DNA from: a bacterium
GTDB taxonomy: Bacteria; NPL-UPA2; JAUVJM01
Direction: 5' to 3'
Assembly (NCBI GenBank): GCA_030606215.1
Contig: JAUWGW010000018.1
Location: 1-32,593, forward strand
DNA length: 32,593 bases
Each line of letters starts with the position of its first letter. Position 1 is the stretch's first letter. Under the pieces are notes generated by a model, which saw only the letters and a list, made by a program, of their open reading frames with translations, made no database searches and was not told the origin of the DNA. Shown in pieces: positions 4,174 through 24,736 of the stretch. Position numbers and translations under genes: made by a program.

Positions 4174-5895
4174 TTAGTATCTGTTTCTTTTAGTATAACT
4201 TGTATGTAAAAGTTTGTGTGCCTTCTCGCTCAAGGGTTTACCTAAAAATTCCTTATAAAGTGTAATAATAGCAGGATTTTGGTGGGATTTCCTGATGGGC
4301 TTATTTTTATCTTCTTGATATAGACTTTTAGCTCTCGCTTTCCTGATTTCAAGATTTGTGGGCATAGGCTGACCCCCTCCTCCAAGACATCCTCCAGGGC
4401 AAGCCATTATTTCAATAAAATGATAAGGAGATTTACCCTTTTGAACCTCCTCTAACAAAACTTTAGCATTAGATAACCCATGAGCAATTGCAACTTTTAA
4501 ACTTAAACCATTTAGATTTATTTCTGCATTCTTTATTCCTTGCATACCTCTTACCTCTTCAAATTCTATCCGGGGTAAAGTTCTTCCTGTTACAATTTCA
4601 TAAGCAGTTCTGAGCGCTGCCTCCATCACCCCTCCTGTAGCTCCAAAAATTACTCCTGCGCCAGAAGATATTCCCAAAGGTTTATCAAAATCTTCATTGG
4701 GTAAATTAACAAAATCTATCCCTGCTTCTTTAATCATTCGGGCTGCTTCCCTTGTAGTTAGCACTACATCTACATCCTGCACTCCTGATGCTTTCATTTC
4801 AGGACGTTGTGCCTCAAACTTTTTTGCTACACAGGGCATAATAGAGACAACACACATATCTTGAGGTTTAATACCTGCTTTTTGAGCATAATAGGTTTTA
4901 GCTATAGGGCCAAACATCTGCTGGGGAGATTTACAGGTGGAGAGATATTCCAAACACTCAGGGAAGAAATGCTCAATATACTTTATCCATCCTGGAGAAC
5001 AAGAGGTGACCATAGGAAGAGTACCTTTATTTTTTATCCTCTCTATCAACTCATGCGCCTCTTCCATAATGGTTAAATCTGCACCAAATTGGGTATCAAA
5101 GACTCTATCAAAACCCAATCTTCGCAGCGCTGTCACCATTTTACTGGTAACTAAACTTCCTGGTGGCATACCAAATTCCTCCCCAATAGCTGCTCTTACT
5201 GCAGGGGCAGTCTGGACTACCACGAACTTTTTTGGATTAGAAATCACTTCCCATGCCTCATCCACTACGGTTCTCTCTCGCAATGCGCCAGTGGGGCAGG
5301 CAAGAATACACTGACCGCAGGTAGTACATTCTACATTATTCAATCCTTTATTAAAAAAGGTTAAAACTTGAGTTCTTCCACCTCGATTAACAAATTCAAT
5401 TGCACCTACAGATTGAATTTCAGAACATACCCTTATACATCTACTACATTGAATACATTTATTGGGGTCTCTTATTATGGCAGGAGAAGTAGTATCAGGT
5501 TCGTAATGATATTTCCTTGCCTTTTTAAATCTTAATTCTCTTACCCCTAAATCGTAAGCTAATTTTCCTAATTCACAGGTTTGACTTCTCTCACAGGTAA
5601 AGCAATCTTCAGGGTGATTGGCTAAAAGTAATTCTACAATCATTTTTCTTGCTCGTCTTATGCGAGCAGTGTTTGTCCTTACCACCATACCTTCTTCTAC
5701 TACAGTTGCACAAGAAGGTTCTAGGCGTGGTCTTCGGTCTATCTCTACTACACAAATTCTGCAGGCTCCATAAATAGACAAATCCTCGTGGTAACAAAGA
5801 TGGGGAATATCAATATTCATTTTTTTTGCTGCCTCAAAGATAGTAGTCTCTTTGGGAACCCGTACCTTTTGGCCATCAATGGTTAGGTTAATCAT
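4174..5895 (-). CDS. hydA: HydA, catalytic subunit of NADH-type [FeFe]-hydrogenase
   Basis: 573 aa, cytoplasmic. It reduces protons or oxidises H2 at the H-cluster. Domains in order: plant-type [2Fe-2S] (C34, C45, C48, C62), His-ligated [4Fe-4S] (HPEDCFTC...C, about 93-110), two [4Fe-4S] ferredoxin motifs (CIQCSRCIRVC and CTTCGQCILAC, about 145-205), then the H-domain. H-cluster signatures are L1 TSCSPGW (Ser in place of the second Cys of the common TSCCP), L2 MPCVAKKFE and L3 MACPGGCLGGGG. No extra C-terminal [2Fe-2S] domain as in the larger Thermotoga-type HydA. It sits with hydB and hydC, so it should exchange electrons with NAD(H) through the FMN subunit. Confidence 0.95.
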   Translation of the reverse strand: MINLTIDGQKVRVPKETTIFEAAKKMNIDIPHLCYHEDLSIYGACRICVVEIDRRPRLEPSCATVVEEGMVVRTNTARIRRARKMIVELLLANHPEDCFTCERSQTCELGKLAYDLGVRELRFKKARKYHYEPDTTSPAIIRDPNKCIQCSRCIRVCSEIQSVGAIEFVNRGGRTQVLTFFNKGLNNVECTTCGQCILACPTGALRERTVVDEAWEVISNPKKFVVVQTAPAVRAAIGEEFGMPPGSLVTSKMVTALRRLGFDRVFDTQFGADLTIMEEAHELIERIKNKGTLPMVTSCSPGWIKYIEHFFPECLEYLSTCKSPQQMFGPIAKTYYAQKAGIKPQDMCVVSIMPCVAKKFEAQRPEMKASGVQDVDVVLTTREAARMIKEAGIDFVNLPNEDFDKPLGISSGAGVIFGATGGVMEAALRTAYEIVTGRTLPRIEFEEVRGMQGIKNAEINLNGLSLKVAIAHGLSNAKVLLEEVQKGKSPYHFIEIMACPGGCLGGGGQPMPTNLEIRKARAKSLYQEDKNKPIRKSHQNPAIITLYKEFLGKPLSEKAHKLLHTSYTKRNRY

Positions 5896-5923
5896 ATCTG
5901 CTCTGCCATTCTTAAAAACCTTT

Positions 5924-7189
5924 TTACATAGGGCAAATCTTCAGCTTGCATTTCTTTTTTGAAATATGTTCCTTAAATTCACCGGGAAACTTCTCTATGA
6001 TAGACCTAACTGCATTAAGTGCTGCCTGACCCAATCCACAGCGAGAGGTATCATACATCACTTCTTGTAGCTCTTTTAAAAGCAGAATATCACTTAAATT
6101 CCCTTGACCCTGGGTAATATTTGCAAAAATCTCCCGTGTACGTTTTGTGCCCTCTCGACAGGGGGCACATTTTCCGCAAGATTCATAATCAAAAAATTCT
6201 GCACATCTTTTAGCTAAATCTACTATGCAGCGGCTATCATTTATTATAATTACTGCCCCTGAACCTAACATACTACCTGCTTTTTGCACGCTGGGATAAT
6301 CCAAGGTTATATTTAACTCTTTATCAGTCAAAAGATTGCTGGAAACTCCACCTGGCAATATCGCTTTGAGCTTTCCTCGTACACCTTGACCACATTTTTC
6401 TATCAATTCTTTTAAAGTAATATTTGCAGGGAGTTCATATACTCCGGGCCTGTTAACATCTCCAGAAAGGCAATATAATTTTGTCCCACAAGATAAAGGA
6501 GAACCTATTTGAGAAAACCAATCTCCACCCTTTAAAATAATCTCTGGAATATTTGCGAATGTCTCTACATTATTTAAAACTGTTGGCTTATTCTTAAATC
6601 CAACAAATGTAGGGAAAGGTGGCTTTACCCGAGATTGTCCTTTTTTACCTTCCAGTGAATCTAAAAGGGCAGTCTCCTCTCCACAAACATAGCTGCCAGC
6701 ACCTCGGAAAAGCGTGATTTTAAAGGAAAAATTAGAGCCAAGAATATTCTTCCCTAAGAAATTATTCCTCTCTGCTTCTTCTATTGCCCTTTTTAAGATT
6801 TCATAAGCCTTGAAATACTCTCCTCGGATATAAATAAAACCTTCTTCGGCGCCAACGGTAAACCCACAGATAATCATTGCCTCCAGAACCAAATGGGGGT
6901 CATTTTCTAAGATGATTCTATCTTTAAAAGTACCCGGTTCACCCTCGTCAGCATTACAAACCACATATTTAGGATATTCTTTACACTTTTTGGCGAATTC
7001 CCATTTTAATTCCGTAGGAAATGCTGCACCACCCCTACCTACCAATTTAGATTTCTTGATTTCAAATAGAATTTGGTCTGGCTTCATCTTAAGGGCTTTT
7101 TTAAAAGCATTATAGCCCCCTTCTTTTAGATAACTATCTATATTCCCTTTATAGCCTCTCTTTTCTATATTCTTTAAGACCACTTTCAT
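5924..7189 (-). CDS. hydB: HydB, NuoF-like FMN/NAD(H) subunit of the hydrogenase (short form)
   Basis: 421 aa. It binds NAD(H), FMN and one [4Fe-4S] cluster. Seen: GRGGAAFPTELKW and CNADEGEPGTFKDR (FMN/NAD fold), GAGSYVCGEETAL, and the cluster motif CGKCAPC with the fourth Cys in SRCGLG. Compared with about 600-aa bifurcating HydB proteins it lacks the N-terminal thioredoxin-like [2Fe-2S] domain. It also stops at KKKCKLKICPM, where the C-terminal two-cluster ferredoxin would normally start. Its ATG overlaps the hydC stop by 4 bp, so it is translationally coupled. It is probably the NADH-oxidising module that feeds HydA. Confidence 0.92.
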   Translation of the reverse strand: MKVVLKNIEKRGYKGNIDSYLKEGGYNAFKKALKMKPDQILFEIKKSKLVGRGGAAFPTELKWEFAKKCKEYPKYVVCNADEGEPGTFKDRIILENDPHLVLEAMIICGFTVGAEEGFIYIRGEYFKAYEILKRAIEEAERNNFLGKNILGSNFSFKITLFRGAGSYVCGEETALLDSLEGKKGQSRVKPPFPTFVGFKNKPTVLNNVETFANIPEIILKGGDWFSQIGSPLSCGTKLYCLSGDVNRPGVYELPANITLKELIEKCGQGVRGKLKAILPGGVSSNLLTDKELNITLDYPSVQKAGSMLGSGAVIIINDSRCIVDLAKRCAEFFDYESCGKCAPCREGTKRTREIFANITQGQGNLSDILLLKELQEVMYDTSRCGLGQAALNAVRSIIEKFPGEFKEHISKKKCKLKICPM

Positions 7190-7659
7190 CTTTTAGCTTT
7201 ATATTGAAGAATTACCTTTTTTACTTTTTTAGGCGTCAAATTTCCATAAACTTCTTTATTGACCATCATAGCCGGCGCCTTATCACAAAGACCTAAACAG
7301 GAAACTGCCTCTATAGTAAATTTTTTATCTTTTGTAGTTTGGCCTGTTTCAATATTTAATTCATCTTTTAACGTCTCTAAAATCTTTTTTGAACCTCTAA
7401 GATAACAAGGCAAAGATACGCAAATACGAATAACATACTTACCCTGTCTTTGCAGATTAAACATAGAATAAAAAGTAGCTACACTATAAACCTCAACTGG
7501 AGGTAGATTTAACTCTTTAGCTAAAAATGTAATAATCTCTTCTGTCAAATATCCGCATTTTTCACAAGCAACATGGAGACAGGGCAGTAGTGCTTCATTC
7601 TTATTCCCACATTCTTTTAGCACCATCTTTAGCTCTCTCTCACATTTTGCCAAAGACAT
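7186..7659 (-). CDS. hydC: HydC, NuoE-like [2Fe-2S] subunit of the hydrogenase
   Basis: 157 aa, thioredoxin-like [2Fe-2S] protein of the NuoE/HydC family. The four ligands are visible as CVSLPC (CX4C) and CLGLC (CX3C). It forms the electron relay beside HydB. The start has an ideal GGAGG site 7 nt upstream of ATG 7659. It lies 11 nt after the rrf2 stop and overlaps hydB by 4 bp. The N-terminal part carries extra cysteines (residues about 6-37), normal for helical NuoE starts. Confidence 0.93.
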   Translation of the reverse strand: MSLAKCERELKMVLKECGNKNEALLPCLHVACEKCGYLTEEIITFLAKELNLPPVEVYSVATFYSMFNLQRQGKYVIRICVSLPCYLRGSKKILETLKDELNIETGQTTKDKKFTIEAVSCLGLCDKAPAMMVNKEVYGNLTPKKVKKVILQYKAKR

Positions 7660-7670
7660 CTTACCGCCTC

Positions 7671-8120
7671 CTATCTTGCCTTTATCTTACCATGTATATT
7701 TTTGGTAGACTTATTAAGAAGACTTAACAGAGACTTAGAATCCATTATCTCCTTTAATTTGATTGTAGCTTCTTCAAAGAACCTTTGCGCCCCACACCTG
7801 CCACATAACGGACAGTTATAACATCCTTTCTTGTCCATAAGAATACAAGGGGTTAGAGCAATTGACTCTCCTACACATTTTAAAATATCTCCAATACTAA
7901 TATTAGAGGGCGCTTTTGCTAACAAAAAACCTCCTTTAGGGCCACGGACACTTTTGACAAAACCACATTTTTTGAGTCTGATAAATAGCTGCTCAATATA
8001 ATCTATAGAAATTCTTTCTTTTTCAGAAATATGCTTAACAGAAACAGGGCCTTCCCCATAATGTTTTAGGAGGGCAATCATCAGTCTAATTCCATATCTT
8101 CCTTTGGTGGATATTTTCAT
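7671..8120 (-). CDS. Rrf2-family Fe-S/redox transcription regulator
   Basis: 149 aa. The N-terminus MKISTKGRYGIRLMIALL is the typical Rrf2 winged helix. A Cys-rich segment follows at about residue 90-115 (TPCILMDKKGCYNCPLCGRC), where IscR-like members ligate an Fe-S cluster. It is first in the operon, directly upstream of hydC, and a strong IscR-type operator overlaps the promoter. It therefore probably senses Fe-S or redox state and controls hydrogenase expression as well as itself. The ribosome site AAGGA abuts the ATG, unusually close. Assignment to the family is firm; the signal is inferred. Confidence 0.9.
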   Translation of the reverse strand: MKISTKGRYGIRLMIALLKHYGEGPVSVKHISEKERISIDYIEQLFIRLKKCGFVKSVRGPKGGFLLAKAPSNISIGDILKCVGESIALTPCILMDKKGCYNCPLCGRCGAQRFFEEATIKLKEIMDSKSLLSLLNKSTKNIHGKIKAR

Positions 8121-8123
8121 TCC

Positions 8124-8195
8124 TTAAGTATTTCCACGCTTGATCTGTACCTTAGCCATCTTTCTTTTAGTTTCTAATACTAGACCCTCTTCCAT
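8124..8195 (-). other. Possible 23-codon leader ORF before rrf2
   Basis: Between the hyd promoter and rrf2 there is a 23-codon frame (MEEGLVLETKRK then MAKVQIKRGNT) whose TAA lies 3 nt before the rrf2 ATG. Its ATG is only 11 nt below the -10 box, so it would be read from a leader of a few nucleotides. It might supply ribosomes to rrf2, whose own Shine-Dalgarno is too close. It is short enough to be chance. Confidence 0.25.
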
Positions 8196-8206
8196 CTTAG
8201 TTTAAT

Positions 8207-8235
8207 TTTATAACATATACGAGTATTTTAGTCAA
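8207..8235 (-). promoter_or_regulatory. Promoter of the rrf2-hydCBAGEF operon
   Basis: Minus strand: -35 TTGACT (complement of 8230-8235), 17-bp spacer, -10 TATAAA (complement of 8207-8212). This gives a leader of about 80 nt before rrf2. The -35 box lies inside the palindromic operator described separately, so a bound regulator would block RNA polymerase. Confidence 0.8.
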
Positions 8236-8255
8236 GTATGATGTTAGTCAAGTAT
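8215..8255 (-). promoter_or_regulatory. IscR/Rrf2-type operator with a second half-site
   Basis: The minus strand at 8239-8215 reads ATACTTGACTA then AAA then TACTCGTATAT. This closely follows the E. coli IscR type-1 consensus as I recall it (ATASYYGACT, three W, AGTCRRSTAT). The half-site ATACTTGACTA recurs exactly 16 bp upstream (8255-8245). It overlaps the -35 box. The pattern is seen directly; its use by the adjacent Rrf2 protein is inferred. Confidence 0.6.
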
Positions 8256-8267
8256 TTTGGCGAGGGT

Positions 8268-8307
8268 GAGGACGCAGGACTGCCAAAGCCAGGCCAAAGC
8301 CGAATAG
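8268..8307. repeat. Degenerate intergenic repeat, partner near 24546-24586
   Basis: Starts GAGGACG and ends AAGCCGAATAG after about 40 bp, with an internal direct repeat GCCAAAGCC-AG-GCCAAAGCC (8282-8301). The same boundary words with the same spacing occur at 24546-24586 beside tRNA-Pro. It may be a decayed interspersed repeat. Confidence 0.35.
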
Positions 8308-8337
8308 AGTATTGCATTACCACTTTTTTAAAACTTC

Positions 8338-8366
8338 TTGCTTTTGAGGAAAGATGATGATAATAT
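8338..8366 (+). promoter_or_regulatory. Promoter of the nucleotidyltransferase-fold/TPM/LemA operon
   Basis: TTGCTT (8338-8343), 17-bp spacer, TAATAT (8361-8366), about 20 bp before the ATG at 8386. It is divergent from the hyd promoter. Confidence 0.6.
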
Positions 8367-8385
8367 CAGACAGTAGCTACTATGT

Positions 8386-9177
8386 ATGAAAGCACTGTCT
8401 GAATTGCAGCATGAAAAGGGGGATATCACATTGAGTGAATTAGTTAATTTAGCCAGTTTGCCTCAACAGGTAAGAAAAATAGTAGAGCCCTACAGCCTGG
8501 GTATGATTAAACTTCATGGAGATAATCTCAAGACTATCATTGTTTACGGCAGCTCTACCGGCAAGGATTTTATTGCTGGCAAATCTAATATCAACCTTCT
8601 CTTTGTCTTCAAAGAGTTAGAGTTCACATCTCTCAGGATGAGTCTCAAATCAGTAGCCAAGGGAAGGAAGAAAGGAATTATTGCTCCTCTTTTCCTTACC
8701 GAGAGGCATATTAAAACTTCAACAGATGTCTTCCCCATTGAATTCCTGGAAATGAAAGAGAACCATATCACCATATATGGACAGGATATACTGGAAGCTC
8801 TGGAGATAAAAAAGGATAATATACGACTCCAGTGTGAGCAGCAGCTTAAAGGGAAATTGATCAGGCTGAGACAGGCATACCTGGAGATCGGATTGAGAAG
8901 AAAAGGGGTTGAAGCTCTCCTCGTTGAATCCCTTACCTCTCTCATTCCTACCTTCCGTAATATGCTTCGTCTGAAGGGATGGAAAGTTCCGCTGGAGAAG
9001 GAGGAAGTCATAAACAGAATCTCTTCCGAATTTGATGTGGATAGAGGAGTTTTTCTCAGCATCCTGAGAGATAAGAGGGGAGACGAAAAAATTGCAGGGA
9101 TGGAAGCAGATAAGTTCTTAGGAAAATATTTAGAAGAGATTCGTAAATTAGCAATCGCTGTGGATGAATTAAAATGA
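8386..9177 (+). CDS. Nucleotidyltransferase-fold protein with a degenerate active site
   Basis: 263 aa. Around residue 53-72 the segment YGSSTGKDFIAGKSNINLLF looks like the GS...DxD core of the minimal nucleotidyltransferase fold, but both metal-binding Asp are replaced by Asn (NIN). Catalysis is therefore doubtful. The C-terminal half is helical and charged. Its stop overlaps the start of the TPM gene by 4 bp (ATGA), so the two are translated together. The trio with TPM and LemA suggests a cell-envelope-related role, but the function is unknown. The ribosome site is weak; the start is chosen because the nearby upstream ATG (8380) is quickly closed by a stop. Confidence 0.75.
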   Translation: MKALSELQHEKGDITLSELVNLASLPQQVRKIVEPYSLGMIKLHGDNLKTIIVYGSSTGKDFIAGKSNINLLFVFKELEFTSLRMSLKSVAKGRKKGIIAPLFLTERHIKTSTDVFPIEFLEMKENHITIYGQDILEALEIKKDNIRLQCEQQLKGKLIRLRQAYLEIGLRRKGVEALLVESLTSLIPTFRNMLRLKGWKVPLEKEEVINRISSEFDVDRGVFLSILRDKRGDEKIAGMEADKFLGKYLEEIRKLAIAVDELK

Positions 9178-21880: not shown

Positions 21881-22550
21881 TTATAACGCCTTCCAATACC
21901 CGCCTTTATCAGGGCCGATTCTTTCAATGAATTCTTTTTCTTTTAGTTTCTCTATATGTTTTTGGACTGCAGAGGGATTTATATTTAGTTTATCTGACAA
22001 TTCTTTTCTTGATATCTTTGAATTTTCTTTAATTAACTGTAATATTTCTGCTTGCCTTTCTGTTAATTCTGACCACCTTTTCTGACCACCTTTTCTGACC
22101 ACCTTTTCTCCGACCTTTTCCTCCGCCTCTGCCATCTTTAGGTATTCCCTGCTCTGCTTAAAAGTAATGTAAAAATGAATATCAGTATATTCTACATTAG
22201 GGAAAGGAGTACTTTCCGCCTTACAAATATCTTTCATTCTTTTAAACCCTGTGCCCATTTTTTCGCCAAACTGAATTCTGGAAAATAAATCAGAAGTTAG
22301 CTGGTTTCTTCTAAAAACTGTTTTGCCTAATCTAAACTTTTGGGGCTATATTCTGAATTTCAGACCTTAGGCGATTAGTTATTTTTACTGCTCTGATTTT
22401 TCCCTCATCTGTCACTCCTACCAATATCCTCCCTCCTAAAGAATTAGAAAAAGCCACAATATCTTTATCTATGCCTGATAATCTCTCTTTGAATTCAACC
22501 CTGTAGCCTTCGCCCTCTTTTAGAATTAGAGCAAGCTCTTTTTTATCCAT
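21881..22550 (-). pseudogene. AlbA_2/RecG-like ATP-binding regulator, internally deleted
   Basis: Two remnants of one gene in different frames. The 5' part (22550-22332) encodes an AlbA_2 (Schlafen-like) start: GYRVEFKERL, DIVAFSNSLGGRILVGVTDEG, NRLRSEIQNIAP, then a stop. The 3' part (from about 22345 to 21881) encodes the typical end: RRNQLTSDLF, EKMGTGFKRM, then a winged helix (LTERQAEILQLI, KISRKELSDKLNINPSAVQKH). Around 200-300 central residues are gone and the frames do not join. The 3' part also carries a 13-bp triplication. Full relatives are stand-alone transcriptional regulators. It is inactive as one protein; the winged-helix piece (21881-22258) might still be made. Confidence 0.8.
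22070..22108. repeat. 13-bp tandem repeat, three copies
   Basis: TGACCACCTTTTC is repeated three times without interruption, followed by a degenerate copy. Thirteen is not a multiple of three, so each unit is read in a different frame, giving the VVRKGGQKRWSE stretch of the pseudogene. Confidence 0.9.
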
Positions 22551-22583
22551 TTTACCTGCCTAAATTTTCTTAAGGAATTATTC

Positions 22584-22665
22584 TTTGCTCGGTCTCGTCC
22601 GCCCCGCCGGGCTTGAGAAACTGCCTTCCCCTTTAATTGGCAAATTTTGAATGGGGGCAAAATTT
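22584..22665 (+). repeat. 82-bp inverted repeat, left arm
   Basis: Reverse complement of 24407-24488 with one mismatch (81 of 82 positions). Allowing a 1-nt gap, the match runs 5 nt further outward (TTATT). It contains an internal hairpin AAATTTTG-AATGGGGG-CAAAATTT (22642-22665) and a G+C-rich block (CGTCCGCCCCGCCGGGC). It lies 34 bp upstream of the AlbA_2 remnant and bounds the toxin-antitoxin island. Confidence 0.95.
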
Positions 22666-22703
22666 ACCTTTTAAATAGAAAATAACATTGGAAATCACCT
22701 GCC

Positions 22704-22732
22704 GTTACCCAACGCAAATAGCGTTAGGTAAC
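22704..22732. repeat. Stem-loop just inside the left inverted repeat
   Basis: GTTACC-C-AACGC, loop AAATA, GCGTT-A-GGTAAC. As minus-strand RNA all 12 positions pair (one U-G). It lies 35 bp downstream of the nuclease frame and could protect or end its transcript, although no T tract follows. Confidence 0.6.
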
Positions 22733-22766
22733 AGTCAGTATGAATTGATTGGTTATATTGTTTTAT

Positions 22767-23353
22767 TTAAAATATTTTCAATCGCGCTGTTTTAAAAAAA
22801 TCTAAAAGTTGACGATCCATTAATTTTCCAGCAATTATTTCATTAAAATTTGATGGTTGCCGCTCATCGGTTACTATAAAAAATTTTTCTGACTTAACAT
22901 ACTTTTCGATATAATTATTCCCATTCCTATCATTTGTATTTAATGCGCTTAACAATACTAATTCCTGTGGTATTTTCTTGTTTCCTTTTAGGTATTCTTT
23001 GTATCCGCTACGTATTATCTCATCAATATCTTTGATGCATTGATCGAATCTCCTACCTACAGAACAATCAGTAATAAAAATAATAATATTCTTTTCTCCA
23101 TTGTCTAACATGTATTTTATGATCAAAGCCTTTTTTGCTAAAAGACTTTATTTCAACTAAATATTTTTCATTTTTGTACTGAAAAATAATATCGGGAGTT
23201 GTTGATTTGTATTTGGAATCGCCAACTTCTTTGATCTTCCTCGGCAGAATTAAGGCATTCTTTCACAATTGGAGCTATGGAAAATTTCTGAAAACCTAAC
23301 GAAAGATCAACCCCAAGTTCTTCAGGAGATTTTTCTGTTTTCGATGATGACAC
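22767..23353 (-). pseudogene. PD-(D/E)XK nuclease-like gene with two frameshifts
   Basis: Three frames joined give about 194 residues. Frame 1 starts at GTG 23353 (GGAG 7 nt upstream) and reads SSSKTEKSPEELGVDLSL through IVKECLNSA. A shift at about 23239 (GG) leads to KIKEVGDSKYKSTTPDIIF and YLVEIKSFSKK. A second shift at the A6 run (23131-23136) leads to YMLDNGEKNIIIFITDC and on to the stop at 22767. TPDII, 12 residues, then EIK is a good PD-(D/E)XK nuclease core. Each shift equals one extra base. It is probably a dead restriction-type nuclease next to a toxin-antitoxin module; the family is not recognised, and sequencing error is the alternative. Confidence 0.7.
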
Positions 23354-23365
23354 TGAAATACTCCA

Positions 23366-23464
23366 TTACTTTGTAACCTTTTTAGACCGAACAATTAATA
23401 AACGAGCTTCATTTTCACTAAAATTTTCTTGTAAGGATTAATTTACTTTTCTGCCAACATCCAT
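23366..23464 (-). pseudogene. Short 32-codon frame with an internal stop
   Basis: After hepT an AAGGA site leads to ATG 23464. The frame reads MDVGRKVN, TAA, SLQENFSENEARLLIVRSKK and stops at 23366, where the nuclease ribosome site begins. With one base change it would be an intact small gene; otherwise it is the tail of a larger lost gene. The product is not recognised. Confidence 0.4.
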
Positions 23465-23476
23465 GCAATTCCTTCG

Positions 23477-23821
23477 CTATGTAATATCCTTCAAAATTTG
23501 CTCCACCTCCGCTTTGAGCTTCGGAATATCTTTTTTTGTTGTAGACCAGACTGCTTTGATATCTACTCCAAAATAATCATGAATCAGCTTATCCCGCATT
23601 CCAGCTATATCTTTCCAGGGAATATGAGAGTATTTGCTTCGCAAACCAGTAGAAATTCTCTTAGCCGCTTCTCCGATAATTTCAATCTGCCGAATGACCC
23701 CGTCTTGAAGAAGCAAAGTCTTGGTAAAAACTCCCCGGTTAACCCCGGAAAGATACCCTTCAATTCTAATAACTGCATCTAAAATATGCTTTAGATATAC
23801 AGTATCATCTCGCCCTTTCAT
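23477..23821 (-). CDS. hepT: HepT-family RNase toxin
   Basis: 114 aa, HepT (DUF86) toxin of the MntA-HepT type VII toxin-antitoxin family. The RNase motif R-X4-H-X-Y is intact (RDKLIHDY near residue 76-83); its Tyr is the residue AMPylated by MntA in known systems. Helical throughout ([29 protein letters not shown]). ATG 23821 has GGAG 7 nt upstream and overlaps mntA by 17 bp, so the pair is translationally coupled. It appears functional, unlike the nuclease gene downstream. Confidence 0.93.
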
Positions 23822-24101
23822 AAACTATCTCCATTTCCTTTTTAATCCTGCCTCTCAAATAGGGACTGATAGAAGCTTCAGTCAGTAAGTCTGTCTTTTT
23901 CCCTAAAACTTCAGAGAACATCCTCTCCATCCTTACAAGTTCAAGCAAACTCTTAGTTTTAGAAAAACGAACTAAAAAATCAATATCGCTCTCCTTTGTA
24001 TAGTCTCCTTTAACAAAAGAGCCGAATATTGCCAAGAACACAATGTCGTTCTTCTTGCACGCTTCCAATAACTTCTTTTTATTATTAATGGTGCCTCTCA
24101 T
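23805..24101 (-). CDS. mntA: MntA-family nucleotidyltransferase antitoxin
   Basis: 98 aa minimal nucleotidyltransferase. Catalytic signature [18 protein letters not shown] (GSF-X10-DXD) is intact at about residue 26-43. In characterised pairs MntA adds AMP to HepT and silences its RNase activity. AGAGGA precedes the ATG at 4 nt. Order xre (12 nt upstream), mntA, hepT implies one autoregulated operon. Confidence 0.93.
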
Positions 24102-24113
24102 AACTTCCTCTTT

Positions 24114-24320
24114 TTATCTATTCTTATTTCCCTTTACCAACTCATCAATAGGAACCCCCAAAGCAGAGGCTATTTTACTAACCGTAGTAATGGTTGGCTC
24201 TTTTGCAATGCCCTGTTCAATCTTTATAAGGGTATTATTAGAAATATCTGCAAGACGGGCCAGTTTTTCTTGCGATAACCCTTTTTTCATTCTAAATCTT
24301 TTTATGTTCTTTGCAATCAT
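24114..24320 (-). CDS. XRE-type helix-turn-helix regulator of the toxin-antitoxin operon
   Basis: 68 aa, a single HTH_3 domain: NIKRFRMKKGLSQEKLARLA, DISNNTLIKIEQG, TTVSKIASALGVPIDEL. It likely binds as a dimer to the palindromes just upstream (24332-24352 and 24368-24385) and represses xre-mntA-hepT. A separate XRE gene is not a required part of MntA-HepT, so it may instead be the controller of the lost restriction-type system. SD is weak (AAAGGT). Confidence 0.9.
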   Translation of the reverse strand: MIAKNIKRFRMKKGLSQEKLARLADISNNTLIKIEQGIAKEPTITTVSKIASALGVPIDELVKGNKNR

Positions 24321-24331
24321 AACCTTTTATG

Positions 24332-24385
24332 ATACTACTTTTGTAATAGTATTTTTATTTATCGCCCGTTATAGTATTATATAAC
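24332..24385 (-). promoter_or_regulatory. Operators and -10 box of the xre-mntA-hepT operon
   Basis: Palindrome 1: ATACTA-9 nt-TAGTAT (24332-24352). Palindrome 2: GTTATA-6 nt-TATAAC (24368-24385), which covers a perfect -10 TATAAT (complement of 24376-24381). The -35 is poor; a TTGCTT at 24403-24408 is too distant. Binding at these sites would block transcription. Confidence 0.55.
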
Positions 24386-24406
24386 AAATTAAATGAAAAA
24401 TAAAGC

Positions 24407-24488
24407 AAATTTTGCCCCCATTCAAAATTTGCCAATTAAAGGGAAAGGCAGTTTCTCAAGCCCGGCGGGGCGGACGAGACCGAGCAAA
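24407..24488 (-). repeat. 82-bp inverted repeat, right arm
   Basis: Partner of 22584-22665 in opposite orientation, one mismatch (corresponding to left position 22628). Encloses 1.74 kb. The xre -10 box lies 25 bp inside its inner edge. Outward of it lie 169 bp and then tRNA-Pro. Confidence 0.95.
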
Positions 24489-24657
24489 AATAACCACCTT
24501 TTTAAAAATTTGTTCGGAGCAACCTTAAAAAAACAGATTTTTTGCGAGGACGTAGTCTTGAACGAAGCGAAGGATAAGCCGAATAGGAAAACTAAATGTC
24601 GGGGCAGGCAAAATGGGTTCGCACTTCGTTTAATAACTGCGACCAGATTAGACATTC
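24489..24657. other. Non-coding spacer between island and tRNA-Pro
   Basis: No gene seen; 24321-24657 as a whole is free of genes. It holds the second copy of the degenerate repeat GAGGACG...AAGCCGAATAG (24546-24586) and GTCGGGGC at 24599-24606, which matches 8 bp of the tRNA-Pro acceptor end. A weak CCAGA/TCTGG hairpin (24643-24660) lies at the tRNA 3' end. Confidence 0.5.
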
Positions 24658-24736
24658 TGGTCGGGGCGACTGGATTCGAACCAGCGACCCCTTGCACCCC
24701 ATGCAAGTGCGCTAAACCAAACTGCGCTACGCCCCG
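24658..24736 (-). tRNA. tRNA-Pro(GGG), CCA encoded
   Basis: Minus strand: acceptor CGGGGCG/CGCCCCG (C1-G72, typical of Pro), anticodon arm CTTGC-ATGGGGT-GCAAG with anticodon GGG, T-arm GCTGG-TTCGAAT-CCAGT, discriminator A, CCA at 24658-24660. Its 3' end points to the inverted-repeat island, a usual location for integrated elements. Confidence 0.96.

Follow-up and report, generated by a model that had tools for sequence, protein, structure and literature searches.

Why should two nearly identical DNA arms in opposite orientation enclose a small toxin-antitoxin locus beside a tRNA gene, with no enzyme at hand that could have moved it? The window analysed here, a stretch of 32,593 nucleotides from a bacterium of the GTDB lineage NPL-UPA2 (contig JAUWGW010000018.1, assembly GCA_030606215.1), contains such a locus. 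An earlier sequence-only reading had interpreted it as a possible MITE-like cargo unit, an invertible segment or a module built between two copies of a genomic repeat, and this interpretation is partly supported by the results below. We propose, with a probability of roughly 0.84, that the locus is an integrated element, now decayed, from a family whose serine recombinases target tRNA genes.

Inverted arms and toxin-antitoxin cargo in the window

The arms described by the sequence-only reading were recovered by BLAST, positions 22584-22665 on the plus strand matching 24407-24488 on the minus strand with 81 of 82 positions identical (E = 5.9e-36). A 29-base arm pattern occurs twice in the window and in none of 100 shuffles. 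The homology of the arms extends past these 82 bp, from 24402 to about 24653 in the right arm and from about 22562 in the left, and arm-to-arm identity drops outside the core. The right arm also matches a copy in genome G061 (E = 2.3e-7) and, over 85 bp at 83% identity, a copy at an unrelated intergenic place in G006, a genome of the window's own phylum; the outer part of the left arm is more similar to this G006 copy than to the right arm. The near-identical 82 bp thus lie within a longer and more diverged homology, which argues against terminal repeats cut at that length. In the window's own genome (1.52 Mb, 93% complete) no arm match above chance was found beyond this pair.

These observations bear on the suggestion of a transposase-less, MITE-like cargo unit, in which the 82 bp would be terminal inverted repeats recognised by a DDE transposase encoded elsewhere; the inverted near-identical ends, the cargo genes and the lack of a transposase inside would correspond to such a unit. 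A unit defined by such ends is contradicted by arms whose family homology runs past them on both sides, by the failure to see a target duplication there by eye, by the presence of only two copies in the own genome, and by the recombinase tail and tRNA core that the arms bear; we regard this explanation as hardly tenable.

No known RNA family was recognised in the arm, tRNA-Pro being the sole Rfam match, and its RNA folding is no better than that of shuffles. No arm match was obtained in PLSDB or INPHARED, and neither the palindrome nor the recombinase stub (Table 1) had a match in IMG/VR. One 18-mer match from the virus and plasmid searches sits in unrelated sequence and was set aside.

Table 1. 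Features of the island and its surroundings (window coordinates)
Feature	Coordinates	Strand	Remarks
AlbA/Schlafen regulator, N-terminal half domain	22332..22550	-	profile 1-60 of 118; flank beyond left arm
Left arm, part B, truncated	22562..22670	+	box-3 hairpin and palindrome; near-identical core 22584-22665
Palindrome, left arm	22640..22667	.	one mismatch
Broken reading frame	22767..23353	-	nuclease according to the sequence-only reading only
hepT, HepT-like (HEPN) RNase toxin	23477..23821	-	intact; above Pfam cut-off
mntA, MntA-like nucleotidyltransferase antitoxin	23805..24101	-	intact; above Pfam cut-off
xre-family HTH regulator	24114..24320	-	intact; above Pfam cut-off
Right arm, part B	24402..24639	-	downstream region of serine-recombinase gene: box 2, box 3, palindrome; core 24407-24488
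Palindrome GCAAATTTTG-N8-CAAAATTTGC, right arm	24405..24432	.	
Box-3 hairpin (GCCCggcGGGGCGGACGAGACCGAGC)	24454..24487	.	
Box-2-like segment ending GCGAGGACG (reverse CGTCCTCGC)	24544..24586	.	partly by eye
Recombinase tail stub CLIWSQLLNEVRTHFACPDI*	24592..24654	-	homologous to SLIWSQLLNAVRTYFE in tRNA-Pro-specific recombinases
att core hexamer TGGTCG	24640..24645	-	antisense of tRNA-Pro 3' end CGACCA
Last 8 nt of part A (GTCTAATC)	24646..24653	-	identical to G348 recombinase gene
tRNA-Pro(GGG)	24658..24736	-	3' end CGACCA; inferred integration target

Several earlier statements on the genes of the locus hold. The xre, mntA and hepT genes are intact, the tRNA-Pro neighbour is where it had been placed, and the regulator gene on the left flank is internally deleted, its HTH end (21881-22258) being split from its N-terminal half. 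The mntA-hepT pair, a nucleotidyltransferase antitoxin adjoining a HEPN toxin by Pfam profiles, resembles the type VII MntA/HepT system in gene pair and in domains (PF01934, PF01909); unlike in that system, its NCBIfam scores of 34.4 and 49.9 bits do not reach the equivalog cut-off of 60, and an additional xre lies upstream. The remaining frame had been called a frameshifted PD-(D/E)XK nuclease gene: its decay is confirmed and the nuclease label is unproven, no match having been found in Pfam, NCBIfam or PADLOC. Four more HepT-like genes are found elsewhere in the window's genome (G000 contigs C13, C24, C27 and C23; L116, L127, L135 and L140), and the search of about 1.5 kb to either side of them showed no tRNA.

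Because the inverted repeats are long and nearly identical in their inner parts, they might also act as an invertible switch, in which recombination between the arms turns the toxin-antitoxin segment on or off, and serine recombinases are able to invert DNA. The arms enclose the promoter region of xre together with the gene, and the upstream sequence is common to G414, so that inversion would not uncouple the promoter from xre, and no recombinase is present in the window; such a switch is very improbable.

Paired arms and their cargo in Omnitrophota

The inner end of the arm is formed by a 28-bp palindrome, which was searched with up to one mismatch in 384 genomes of the phylum to which an Omnitrophota relative belongs. 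Thirteen places in nine genomes matched, and the same pattern read backwards, as a control, gave no match in the 384. Four Omnitrophota genomes carry inverted palindrome pairs on one contig, 5.0-7.5 kb apart. The palindrome stem covaries, both sides being changed in 20 cells where shuffles give 8.8, and the flanking stem extends it.

Among the cargo between arms are BsaWI, Tsp45I and MjaI restriction systems, other methyltransferases, an OLD-like ATPase accompanied by SbcCD-like genes, an AAA_13 protein that matches PDC-S06, a candidate defence family, and a PLD nuclease together with a C5 methylase. A type III restriction-modification system and a nuclease of the Mrr type come from loci in which one arm or only the recombinase end was seen. 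Eleven units, the window included, have both arms on one contig, and clear cargo of defence or toxin-antitoxin type is present in eight, the exceptions being G088 (a sub-threshold nSTAND), G259 (MutS_V) and G174:C4 (no match). In three units the arms are directly followed, on the outside, by a gene for a serine recombinase of about 500 residues, and PF00239, PF07508 and a zinc ribbon were identified in the two scanned.

Single, diverged, intergenic arm fragments in three genomes of the window's phylum (G006, G007 and G008) had first raised another reading, that of a REP- or BIME-like dispersed repeat, two copies of which happen to neighbour an ordinary toxin-antitoxin locus with no mobile unit involved. 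It was dropped after inverted pairs enclosing cargo appeared in other genomes, and it also has against it the lack of further copies in the own genome and the anatomy of core, stub and tRNA, with paired arms and a tRNA core in five complete elements; we judge it improbable. The earlier idea of a bounded unit gains from the same data: instead of single copies scattered with no link to cargo, the own genome has this pair only and the palindrome pairs of Omnitrophota enclose mostly defence genes. The complete elements are all from Omnitrophota, and in the window's own phylum only arm fragments were seen, apart from one distant serine recombinase in G007.

Some of these loci show features of their own. 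The contig of G259:C12 (L198), 5850 bases long, has identical inverted arms at both ends around a single 1642-residue MutS_V/AAA-like protein; it could be an excised form or a contig bounded by repeats. Both arms in G203 have, at their outer end, a perfect 27-bp hairpin with a 3-nt loop (L199, 2194-2250). Further partial arms lie past the main element of G173:C8 (L241, oriented, 5164-8941), a pattern that insertion or loss of more than one cassette could produce.

Recombinase genes, attachment sites and a probable remnant at tRNA-Pro

Homologs of the recombinase were found in 70 of the 384 genomes. Thirty loci were examined, and in most of them the end of the gene lies within or at a tRNA in antisense orientation (His, Ser, Asp, Ala or Pro); most also carry, upstream of the gene's start, a 33-162-nt inverted copy of its 3' end. 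This test was positive for nine out of nine recombinases of this clade and for none of four distant ones, and 102 other long ORFs used as a control gave one weak match. Complete elements have a second inverted pair, termed part B (337-513 nt, 87-99.7% identity), located between the upstream copy and the far end of the cargo. Many contigs break off a few hundred bases before the start of the recombinase gene, which repeated arms would lead one to expect; assembly limits could also be the cause.

The attP copy is the same as attR through the terminal hexamer of the tRNA, and then diverges, in 25 of the 26 loci tested; one base differs inside the hexamer at L208, and agreement goes on for a few bases past it at the Ala locus, two Asp loci and one Ser locus. 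The cores are TGGGGT for His, TGGCGG for Ser and Asp, TGGTCG for Pro and TGGTGG for Ala, antisense of the CCA end, and in all five complete elements the far-end B arm starts with this TGG. From the hexamer agreement and this TGG start, the sites can be assigned as attP (A-core-B), attR (A-core-tRNA) and attL (host-core-B), part A denoting what would be the last 90-160 nt or so of the recombinase coding sequence. The reading frame crosses the core into a short tail, [AKE]-V-R-T-Y-F in the Pro and His types, which places attP inside the 3' coding end of the recombinase itself. In the Pro-type tail, 25 changes were synonymous and 19 non-synonymous (25/44, against 23% synonymous expected); the sequences being related, this serves as a guide and not as a formal test, and as such it suggests that the stub is conserved as coding sequence.

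The right arm of the window carries the same signature, with the core TGGTCG and a recombinase tail peptide 12 bp from tRNA-Pro. On the minus strand it reads GTCTAATC-TGGTCG-CAGTTATT, to be compared with GTCTAATC-TGGTCG-CAGCTATT in the tRNA-Pro-specific element of G348; in a longer read, GTCTAATC-TGGTCG-CAGTTATTAAACGAAGTGCGAACCCATTTTG, the first 17 bases equal the G348 attP (17/17) and the tail is homologous. The hexamer likewise stands between A and B in G348, G122 and G376. Within the window, a hexamer equal to the tRNA 3' end and placed between A and B is seen in the right arm only, with the tail stub in frame within B of that arm. The left arm has neither core hexamer nor box 2, and its truncation at about 22562 leaves no attL (host-core-B) at the far end of the unit. 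No recombinase homolog was found within the window, and an intact gene between attP and attR is absent. From the tRNA through the attP remnant and the cargo to the second arm, the parts follow one another as in an intact element that lacks its recombinase. Judging by these losses, the window copy is a decayed, not a functional, member of the family. The earlier suggestion of an addiction module that outlives its cargo is compatible with intact toxin-antitoxin genes beside other frames and a recombinase that are broken or gone.

The closest relatives of mntA-hepT, in Omnitrophota, likewise lie at tRNA-Pro in the same orientation, and in one of them (L008) the far end of the island bears the recombinase tail together with a palindrome-like arm. 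A relative from the window's family, G001, keeps plsY-gpsA-merR-tRNA-Pro and differs beyond tRNA-Pro; no empty tRNA-Pro site was found in this genome, whose synteny breaks at that gene.

Among other loci, the mntA-hepT relatives L007, L008, L009, L010 and L152 occur repeatedly downstream of tRNA-Pro in differing genomic contexts, and xre is cut at the tRNA end in L007. Fragments resembling a tyrosine-recombinase C-terminus (DVATTLRYYVDVFPEDLEEAAEMLV) were seen by eye downstream of hepT in L007 (about 6380-6470) and L008 (about 6400-6470 and 7100-7190). In G007, of the window's phylum, a 522-residue serine recombinase runs antisense into tRNA-Asp without an inverted copy (L164, 1140-2708), and a box-3-like fragment lies upstream of it (123-173).

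Proposed element and its relation to known systems

The arms, core, stub, order and tRNA of the window, and the matching anatomy in relatives, can be read directly from the sequence. It is proposed that an intact element has the order host, core-B arm (attL), cargo, inverted B-core-A (an intact attP), recombinase gene, A-core (attR) and tRNA, where the core would be the hexamer identical to the tRNA 3' end and part B would extend the recombinase frame by a few residues before its hairpins and palindrome. Integration at the attP in the 3' end of the recombinase gene would give the protein a different tail, encoded on the antisense strand of the tRNA, and with A-core-B duplicated in inverted orientation upstream of the gene, attP would be present twice. 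The 81/82 pair would be explained because the cargo lies between two inverted B arms. In the window, a deletion would have taken the recombinase gene and nearly all of A beside tRNA-Pro; what remains would be 8 nt of A, the core and B, followed by xre-mntA-hepT and the broken frame as cargo, and a truncated left B arm.

The precision of the junctions across many loci suggests that the recombinase catalysed integration at tRNA ends, and the order of the element points to loss of the recombinase by deletion in the window. The arms may have been kept alike through inversion or gene conversion, and the inverted attP pair may flip or mobilise the cargo. More tentatively, and at somewhat short of even odds, the recombinase between two inverted attP sites might allow a circular form to flip recombinase against cargo and to integrate at a tRNA end via either site, and the intact attP that would always be retained next to the integrated recombinase could capture more cassettes. 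Such capture by the element, and a role of its cargo in defence, are put forward as hypotheses.

An odd inverted repeat would thereby be explained as belonging to a class of small defence islands, seemingly unreported, in bacteria that have received little study. The TGGNNN core supplies a rule by which exact ends and target tRNA may be read, and the family offers recombinases with predictable tRNA-end targets. It may also be a good place to look for defence genes, given that restriction-modification and related functions make up most of the observed cargo, and the dual inverted attP, if true, would constitute a serine-recombinase system for collecting such genes. No description of the combined architecture was found in the literature searched, a scope outside which preprints and most subscription journals lie, and a large survey of serine recombinases (PMC10083194) does not mention tRNA in its main text; within that literature the family appears undescribed.

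Large serine recombinases are known from SCC and ECC, where ECC ends are direct repeats of about 50 bp and SCC targets rlmH (PMC6222049). SCCmec/SCC and the Enterococcus cassette chromosome (CcrAB) share with the present family a large serine recombinase and an island at the 3' end of a conserved gene, and SCC att sites show dyad symmetry, as here. Unlike in SCC, the target here would be a tRNA 3' end, attP would lie in the 3' coding end of the recombinase, duplicated in inverted orientation, and the cargo lies between long inverted arms with hairpins. The yeast 2-micron plasmid (FLP/FRT) has the end of its recombinase gene and the recombination site in a long inverted repeat that divides the circle in two, and the recombinase gene end is similarly placed here; FLP is a tyrosine recombinase of a eukaryotic plasmid that does not integrate, and flipping in the present elements is a hypothesis. 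SSV-type archaeal integrases integrate at tRNA genes, and as in the family proposed here their attP lies within the integrase's own gene. A review of these 'suicidal' integrases, which treats tyrosine enzymes, describes self-disrupting recombinases as exclusively archaeal (PMC8371274); in contrast to the SSV enzymes, the present one would be a bacterial serine recombinase that is split only at its extreme C-terminal tail and keeps a second, inverted attP, and would thus provide a bacterial counterpart to the self-splitting integrases.
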